From a bacterium (lineage in GTDB: Bacteria; Patescibacteriota; Microgenomatia; Levybacterales; UBA12049): DNA of 38,262 nucleotides. The DNA is taken from the NCBI GenBank assembly GCA_021785915.1, contig JAJYEF010000003.1, forward strand, positions 1 through 38,262, written 5' to 3'. Every line of letters starts with the position of its first letter. Position 1 is the first letter of the stretch. The translations under genes were made by a program, and so were the position numbers. Below, in pieces: positions 31,504-35,816 of this stretch. The notes beneath the pieces are model-generated. The model was not told the origin of the DNA, made no database searches, and saw only the letters and a program-made list of their open reading frames with translations.

Positions 31504-31713
31504 TTATAGACCAAATCTCCAAGCTTCGTGAGCCGGCCCTTCTGTAAGATTTAGTCCTTCGTAACGAGGGTGTTCGGAGCCAAGATGGTTTTGCTGTTCT
31601 CCAGTGCTTTGTGACTCGTCTTCTTTTTTAGACGATGAAGTCATAGCGCTTAACGCGCGAAGAGCATGTTCAACCTTTGCTCCCTGGTTTACACCAGAAA
31701 GTTTTTCTCTCAT
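31504..31713 (-). CDS. small uncharacterised protein (unit A, behind attenuator)
   Basis: AAAAGGAGGTGATTAAATG start; ORF track. Confidence 0.65.
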   Translation of the reverse strand: MREKLSGVNQGAKVEHALRALSAMTSSSKKEDESQSTGEQQNHLGSEHPRYEGLNLTEGPAHEAWRFGL

Positions 31714-31740: not shown

Positions 31741-31764
31741 AAAAATCTCCCGCTAAAGGGGAGA
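31741..31764 (-). terminator. attenuator terminator A
   Basis: minus strand TCTCCC-CTTTAGC-GGGAGA-TTTTT, between leader peptide A and ORF 31504..31713. Confidence 0.75.
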
Positions 31765-31784
31765 ATTATATATGTCTCCCACAA

Positions 31785-31841
31785 TCAAATTCCCTTAATA
31801 AGGGTAATTTTGTTGATTTGGAAGACTTCTAAGTTATCCAT
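31785..31841 (-). CDS. putative leader peptide A: MDNLEVFQINKITLIKGI
   Basis: 18-codon ORF with AGGA upstream; stop codon sits in the 3' arm of the upstream hairpin. Confidence 0.5.
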   Translation of the reverse strand: MDNLEVFQINKITLIKGI

Positions 31842-31854
31842 AATGTATTTTCCT

Positions 31855-31931
31855 TGGTGGATCCGAGAGGATTCGAACCTCTGACCTTTGCAATGTCAAT
31901 GCAACGCTCTAACCAACTGAGCTACGAATCC
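31855..31931 (-). tRNA. tRNA-Val(GAC), CCA encoded
   Basis: GGATTCG acceptor paired with CGGATCC; anticodon arm TTGCA-TTGACAT-TGCAA; T arm AGAGG-TTCGAAT-CCTCT. Confidence 0.95.
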
Positions 31932-32709: not shown

Positions 32710-32737
32710 AAAAAAAATCTCCCTTGTTTGGGAGATT
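32710..32737 (-). terminator. attenuator terminator B
   Basis: minus strand AATCTCCC-AAACAA-GGGAGATT followed by T-run, directly upstream of the SD. Confidence 0.8.
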
Positions 32738-32777
32738 GTTCTTTTGTTTAAAATTTTGTTTTATTACATCTTTTCTC

Positions 32778-32819
32778 CCAAACAATTACGCCTCCATAAG
32801 GAGGTTAATAATCGTTTGG
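32778..32819 (-). promoter_or_regulatory. leader hairpin 1:2 of unit B
   Basis: CCAAACGATTA..CCTCC-TTAT-GGAGG..TAATTGTTTGG, 11 bp outer stem (one G-U) plus 5 bp inner stem. Confidence 0.7.
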
Positions 32820-32839
32820 AAAAGAAAAGATCTTTTCAT
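32786..32839 (-). CDS. putative leader peptide B: MKRSFLFQTIINLLMEA
   Basis: 17-codon ORF starting about 5 nt from predicted TSS; stop at start of hairpin 3' arm. Confidence 0.5.
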   Translation of the reverse strand: MKRSFLFQTIINLLMEA

Positions 32840-32850
32840 ACTATAAAAAA

Positions 32851-32879
32851 ATTCTACAAAAGGTATCATTCCCTGTCAA
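32851..32879 (-). promoter_or_regulatory. sigma70-type promoter of unit B
   Basis: TTGACA-N17-TAGAAT. Confidence 0.75.
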
Positions 32880-33435: not shown

Positions 33436-33458
33436 AAAAAAACCTCCCGCTTGGGAGG
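33436..33458 (-). terminator. attenuator terminator C
   Basis: minus strand CCTCCC-AAGC-GGGAGG-TTTTTTT. Confidence 0.8.
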
Positions 33459-33482
33459 CTTTAAGGCGCATTTAATTAAAAG

Positions 33483-33545
33483 CTACGCCAAGAAACCTCC
33501 CCTTAAGGAGATCTTGATAAGCTTCTTAATAAAAATTAATTTCAT
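33483..33545 (-). CDS. putative leader peptide C: MKLIFIKKLIKISLRGGFLA
   Basis: 20-codon ORF downstream of TTGACA (33575-33580); ends TAG next to segment 2. Confidence 0.5.
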   Translation of the reverse strand: MKLIFIKKLIKISLRGGFLA

Positions 33546-33588
33546 AAAATTATTTTTTCAAAACTTATAATTTATGTCAACAACCAAA

Positions 33589-35258: not shown

Positions 35259-35816
35259 TTATAATGTGAGGGAAAGTGAATCCTTAGGGTCGTTTAAAGC
35301 GAATTTCTGGATGTCATTAAGGTAATAAAGTACGTGCGAAGCCCATACGGGAGAAGAAGCGTACATAGACCCTATTTGGTATATGTTTTGACCTCCCCAT
35401 TTGTCCATGTATCTTTGTCTTAATCCTGCCGAAACGGTTTGTATGCCCTCTTTCCAGGAACTAAATCTTATTACATTGTCGCCGTATACCCCCCATCCCC
35501 AACCATTATAAGAAGAGGGTGGAATTGACTTACCGAATGTGGATTCAACTCCGGCAATTGCGGCAACCAGTCTCCAGTCCAGATTGTACTCATCGGCATA
35601 ATAGATAAAATCCTGCGCATTTTTTGCCAACGGAGAATGCTGTTTCAACAGATATTTCTTTAGTATTTTTACACGGTAATCAGAACTTTCCGTAACCGAT
35701 TGGAAAGTTTTAATGTCCGCGGAGGACGCTGAAGCCTTTTCCTGTGAATACGCTTTTTGAGGAATAATCGTTAGTGCCGCAATAAAAAATATTGCAAGCA
35801 AAATTTTATTTCCCAT
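35259..35816 (-). CDS. secreted lysozyme/glucosaminidase-like protein
   Basis: signal peptide; DEYNLDWRLVAAIAGVESTFGKSIPPSSYNGWGWGVYG lysozyme-like motif. Confidence 0.75.
   Translation of the reverse strand: MGNKILLAIFFIAALTIIPQKAYSQEKASASSADIKTFQSVTESSDYRVKILKKYLLKQHSPLAKNAQDFIYYADEYNLDWRLVAAIAGVESTFGKSIPPSSYNGWGWGVYGDNVIRFSSWKEGIQTVSAGLRQRYMDKWGGQNIYQIGSMYASSPVWASHVLYYLNDIQKFALNDPKDSLSLTL

Follow-up and report, generated by a model that had tools for sequence, protein, structure and literature searches.

Genomic organization of the locus

The window analyzed here is the whole 38,262-nt stretch of contig JAJYEF010000003.1 (GenBank assembly GCA_021785915.1), from an ultrasmall bacterium of the Patescibacteria. 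A tRNA-Val(GAC) gene on its minus strand (31855-31931, called by ARAGORN and Rfam) lies directly 5' of a compact element, designated unit A, which had been proposed in an earlier note to comprise a leader peptide and an attenuator. The unit A leader ORF (MDNLEVFQINKITLIKGI, 18 codons, 31785-31841) has start and stop codons ahead of the terminator, and its ATG at 31841 is separated from the tRNA CCA by 13 nt. An SD-like AAGGA (31851-31855) is situated 9 nt ahead of this ATG and shares the last base of CCA. Segment 1 (GTCTTCCAAATC, 31815-31826) lies within the leader ORF and is followed by an inner hairpin, CCCTT-ATT-AAGGG (31792-31804), and by segment 2 (GATTGTGGGAGAC, 31774-31786), which can pair with segment 1 or can use its GGGAGA to pair with segment 3 (TCTCCC, 31759-31764). 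Segment 3 and segment 4 (GGGAGA plus T5, 31741-31751) together form the intrinsic terminator TCTCCC-CTTTAGC-GGGAGA-TTTTT (31764-31741), with a 6-bp stem. Checked against the sequence, all of the element positions in the earlier note hold, including the leader start 13 nt past the CCA, the AAGGA overlapping its final A, the inner hairpin, and the terminator. Its 1:2 stem is also present, but the predicted helix spans 13 to 14 bp with a bulge instead of the seven positions described.

Downstream of the terminator is a gene for a 69-amino-acid orphan protein (31504-31713, minus strand) with an intact ORF and a very strong Shine-Dalgarno sequence (AAAAGGAGGTGA). Only 27 nt separate the terminator from the ORF, too few for an independent promoter, whose presence would have refuted the attenuator proposal; the proposal passes this check. 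No relatives of the protein were found in 100 genomes, Pfam, PHROGs, or PDB sequences, and its single-sequence structural model was poor (pLDDT 66, pTM 0.26). The next gene, encoding YjbQ (UPF0047), is preceded by a promoter-like TTTATA-17-TAAAAT (31498-31470, minus strand; 31498-31463 including the 6 nt between the end of the -10 element and the ATG), from which its mRNA is predicted to be leaderless, like the leader ORFs described below. Since YjbQ has this promoter-like site of its own, the unit A switch probably governs the 69-amino-acid gene alone.

Two sibling units lie upstream on the same strand. Unit B (32711-32879) consists of a TTGACA-17-TAGAAT promoter, a leader (MKRSFLFQTIINLLMEA, 32839-32786), and a terminator (32737-32716), and its segment 2 (TTGTTTGGGAGA) is complementary, without mismatch over 12 nt, to segment 3 and the loop. 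Unit C (33436-33580) has a TTGACA promoter, a leader (MKLIFIKKLIKISLRGGFLA, 33545-33483), and a terminator (33462-33439), and precedes a 175-amino-acid gene (33415-32888, minus strand). Homologues of this gene occur in genomes G064, G061, and G001 (47%, 32%, and 22% identical); a leader and attenuator stand directly in front of it in G064 and G001 (MKINDFSKKSKKNLSPRGFVLA, MNKNLQINNKKNTS) and precede the next gene upstream instead in G061. A structural model of the unit C gene product (pLDDT 62) gave no meaningful PDB match. The gene upstream of unit C encodes a DUF5660 protein and is present in 58 of 73 family genomes, in many of which attenuator units are located directly 3' of it. Many of the switch-controlled small genes between 31504 and 33415 and in relatives carry a near-complete complement of the anti-Shine-Dalgarno sequence (AAAGGAGGTGA), which suggests very strong predicted translation once these genes are transcribed. 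Elsewhere in the window, a TTGACA-17-TATATT promoter, two tandem terminator-like hairpins, and a possible small ORF (MSFQIHTLGFFLV) at 35938-35817 (minus strand) precede a glucosaminidase-like gene (35259-35816). This element, which is possibly another attenuator or a riboswitch, lacks the CTCCC/GGGAG motif.

Alternative structures and the terminator

The terminator pattern CTCCCN{3,12}GGGAGNNTTTT has only three matches in the whole 984-kb genome, all on the minus strand within 1.7 kb (unit A, 31741-31763; unit B, 32713-32734; unit C, 33438-33457), and its reversed form has none. With all genome-wide copies at one locus, chance does not account for the pattern. The predicted folding energy of the unit A leader is -29.5 kcal/mol (z = -3.6), a value reached by 0 of 200 shuffles.

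The 1:2, 2:3, and 3:4 helices of unit A are mutually exclusive. Folding with a ribosome placed at each leader codon in turn predicted how they would compete. RNA free of ribosomes forms 1:2 and 3:4, corresponding to termination. When the A site is placed on codons 3 to 9 or 13 to 17, 2:3 pairs before segment 4 is made (P of 0.95 to 0.98), and at codons 10 to 12 a competing alternative fold appears. A ribosome on the stop codon covers segment 2, and the 3:4 helix results. These are the three states expected of such a switch. The 2:3 helix is 6 bp long and weaker than in most related units collected in the scan below, with E(2:3)-E(3:4) at +0.9 kcal/mol (rank 138 of 155 units, median -6.0); unit A may have to rely on kinetics or may be decaying. 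Unit C behaves differently, as its free RNA already favors 2:3 and the terminator is restored only by a ribosome near the end of the leader. Across all of these units, 1:2 complementarity was only modestly above that of shuffles (p<=0.05 in 16% of units). RNAalifold applied to an alignment of the leuA-type leaders recovered only the 2:3 helix, in which two of seven pairs had changes on both sides, and the 1:2 stems of this type could not be aligned column by column.

A class-wide family of predicted attenuators

The full scaffold GGGAGN{18,48}CTCCCN{3,12}GGGAGNNTTTT, comprising segment 2, segment 3, segment 4, and the T tract, was found in 158 of 373 genomes of the same Patescibacteria class, and the reversed pattern in none of the 373. 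By our own count of a phylum-wide sample, it occurred in 8 of 20 class members versus 11 of 219 others. These counts are lower bounds because the scan catches only the CTCCC/GGGAG form and GGCGGG forms exist (L047, L059, and L084). We extracted 156 distinct units, for which leaders and genes were called automatically; some of the units are wrong. Many come from related genomes, making the permutation p-values below optimistic. A sigma-70 promoter only 5 to 8 nt before the leader start codon was present in 53 of 153 units, versus 0.6 in dinucleotide shuffles. RNA from such promoters should start on the AUG or beside it, which predicts leaderless transcripts.

Leader composition followed the downstream pathway. 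Cys-rich leaders precede cystathionine beta-synthase/cysteine synthase genes at nine loci, FYFYF leaders precede DAHP synthase genes at ten, and LLLLNLSLLL-like leaders precede 2-isopropylmalate synthase (LeuA) genes at three. Likewise, a WFFFSS leader is found before prephenate dehydratase, SIIEIIAS before citramalate synthase, branched-chain leaders before IlvB, IlvD, and IlvE, SPSSSS before SerB-SerA fusions, and KKTTKT before aspartokinase. In 35 units, the fraction of the cognate residue in the leader was 0.349, versus 0.134 after permutation (0 of 10,000 permutations; p<1e-4). The downstream gene belonged to the matching amino acid metabolism in 34 of the 35 annotated units, the exception being a miscalled second leader at L087. 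Because the leaders match the downstream pathway, the family members are, as judged from sequence, classic ribosome-mediated amino acid attenuators, many of them on predicted leaderless transcripts.

The controlled proteins themselves are poor in the residue that the leader is rich in. Its relative frequency was 0.77 versus 1.00 +- 0.05 in the proteins of all 145 units and 0.68 versus 1.00 +- 0.14 (p=0.002) in 27 small-protein units. The classing rule for the latter was set after the leaders had been seen, and automatic choice of the residue gave p=0.05.

Several other arrangements were observed in the family. At L087 (3650-3974), two serial Thr-rich attenuators (MANQFISTTTTIS and MKKYIFIIETTTTTQFFWEC) precede one SerB-like HAD phosphatase gene. 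A long, conserved Leu/Val-rich leader, MSK.IAIDLKRVE.LVVLLIVLLLGAFLGGLFR, stands before differing small orphan genes (L162, L164-L167, L180, and L182), and its conserved N-terminal half is not accounted for by attenuation alone. Leaders of the MQKNFFISLFVFQLIVGG type, with the same attenuator, precede proteins of approximately 500 amino acids (L099, L104, L134, and L137), of which that at L099 shows a weak glycosyltransferase likeness.

The probable signal and transcript of unit A

Unit A can be aligned with unit B, with leuA-type leaders, and with L068 from another genus (MYRNLFIQTIIMSLIKGVTG...), which has the same 13-nt inner hairpin (CCCTTATTAAGGG). On this sequence evidence unit A is probably a divergent member of the leuA-type subclass by descent. 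Its leader has 4 Ile among 18 codons (ATC and three ATT), more than Leu (TTA and CTT), with no single-residue run. The 69-amino-acid product contains no Ile at all, whereas ten neighboring proteins average 8.3% Ile (chance, 0.003). This absence, together with the family-wide depletion of cognate residues, is indirect evidence from which we infer isoleucine as the most likely signal, a choice that we hold at roughly even confidence; leucine, or branched-chain amino acids in general, is the second choice. The GTC TTC CAA codons listed in the earlier note are probably not the signal, since FQ recurs in leaders because segment 1 is UUCCAA.

A tRNA is found close upstream in only two of the 156 units, unit A and L168. 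The latter is also behind tRNA-Val(GAC), but with a TTGACA in between. No good promoter was seen for unit A itself, which carries the SD-like AAGGA in place of a leaderless start; it is probably on the tRNA-Val transcript, a co-transcription inferred without RNA data. The simplest reading is transcription with the tRNA and subsequent tRNA processing, the transcript starting either at the tRNA's promoter or at promoter B, in the latter case crossing the small genes. A DNA search with the tRNA included matched tRNA genes only.

The same position raises the possibility that unit A merely serves the tRNA-Val gene as an intrinsic terminator, with the small ORF and 1:2 pairing being a coincidence or the remains of a decayed attenuator and the 69-amino-acid gene being expressed by constant readthrough. 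Its place right behind a tRNA, its lack of a promoter, an antiterminator weaker than in all but a few units, and a leader that is not conserved at the same place outside this genome all speak for this explanation. However, unit A has lost none of its leader ORF, 1:2 stem, or segment 2, and these can be aligned with leuA-type units that look functional; the controlled gene retains its very strong Shine-Dalgarno sequence and intact ORF, and two sibling units adjoin. Furthermore, the relatives examined have no such element directly behind tRNA-Val(GAC) except L168, with its intervening promoter. We consider a plain terminator unlikely, while not dismissing it.

Discussion

We think it likely that unit A is a ribosome-mediated transcription attenuator of the classic amino acid type, of leuA-type descent and carried on the tRNA-Val transcript. 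Three lines of evidence support the proposal of a leader peptide and an attenuator, namely folding, the sibling units B and C, and a family across the class in which leaders match the amino acid made by the downstream enzymes. Counting against it are the lack of a single-residue run in the unit A leader, its weak 2:3 helix, the only modest 1:2 complementarity in the family, and an orphan gene without relatives, which offers neither a pathway to compare with the leader nor evidence of conservation. For unit A, the observations comprise its sequence, its alternative structures, its family, and leader-gene concordance in relatives; stalling, readthrough, the sensed residue, and co-transcription are inferred, and no evidence on either unit A or the family goes beyond sequence.

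In the proposed mechanism, processing of tRNA-Val would give the leader its 5' end, and a ribosome would then translate the 18 codons. A ribosome reaching the stop codon would cover segment 2, allowing 3:4 to form and stopping RNA polymerase at approximately 31741; without leader translation, 1:2 would form and 3:4 would again terminate. A ribosome stalled in the leader for want of charged tRNA would instead break 1:2 and free segment 2, which would capture segment 3 before segment 4 is made, so that the 69-amino-acid gene is transcribed. The switch would thus probably turn on this small gene upon amino acid shortage.

This design resembles the Escherichia coli trp, leu, thr, his, and pheA attenuators (Rfam Leu_leader, Thr_leader, His_leader, and Phe_leader) in its short leader ORF, segments 1 to 4 with exclusive 1:2, 2:3, and 3:4 pairing, and terminator before the gene, and unit A's relatives share with them leaders rich in the product amino acid. 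Unlike the E. coli-type leaders, one CTCCC/GGGAG scaffold serves many amino acids, no Rfam leader family is matched at threshold, many leaders are predicted to be leaderless, and unit A follows a tRNA and has an orphan gene under its control. In Corynebacterium glutamicum, the ilvBNC attenuator has a branched-chain leader peptide, and leaderless mRNA initiation has been discussed for it (PMC11857589). It is a relative in design, but from another phylum and with other genes, and unit A, with its SD-like AAGGA, is itself not leaderless.

Stalling could alternatively be caused by a drug. In a translation inhibitor-responsive attenuator of the erm/ABC-F style, an antibiotic-stalled ribosome, not a hungry codon, would antiterminate by the same RNA logic, and the VFQ of the unit A leader resembles the ErmBL leader. 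We rejected this likeness, as VFQ is a consequence of segment 1. Family leaders vary with the amino acid that the downstream pathway serves, and no resistance gene follows unit A, leaving antibiotic sensing very improbable. Least credible is a T-box or other ligand-binding riboswitch that dispenses with leader translation: T-boxes likewise read amino acid shortage as antitermination and the layout lies beside a tRNA, but they bind uncharged tRNA directly, and leader codon content that tracks the pathway would be needless for such a switch. A T-box or known Rfam leader was rejected for unit A, since neither the window nor 20 related loci gave a match to any Rfam family at its threshold; the best subthreshold matches included His_leader (25.5 bits versus 49 needed) and Phe_leader, and the T-box model was absent even among the weak ones.

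Returning to the amino acid attenuator, we tentatively propose, with slightly less than even confidence, a class-wide starvation regulon built on one attenuator scaffold whose leaders have been retargeted to at least eight amino acids. Besides the few remaining biosynthetic genes, it would turn on small, rapidly evolving proteins that can still be made because they themselves contain little of the missing amino acid; in the unit A version, maturation of a valine tRNA would set the leader free. A literature search with little coverage of subscription journals and preprints found no paper on attenuation in Patescibacteria, and this large set of switches is apparently undescribed. Many Patescibacteria are thought to obtain amino acids from host cells, and to our knowledge little is known of how they sense nutrients. 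Collectively, one RNA scaffold appears to be reused for many amino acids, and each leader peptide spells out in its sequence the amino acid to which its gene answers. The family would therefore suggest, in one step, what dozens of orphan genes respond to and would make starvation sensing in these epibionts testable.
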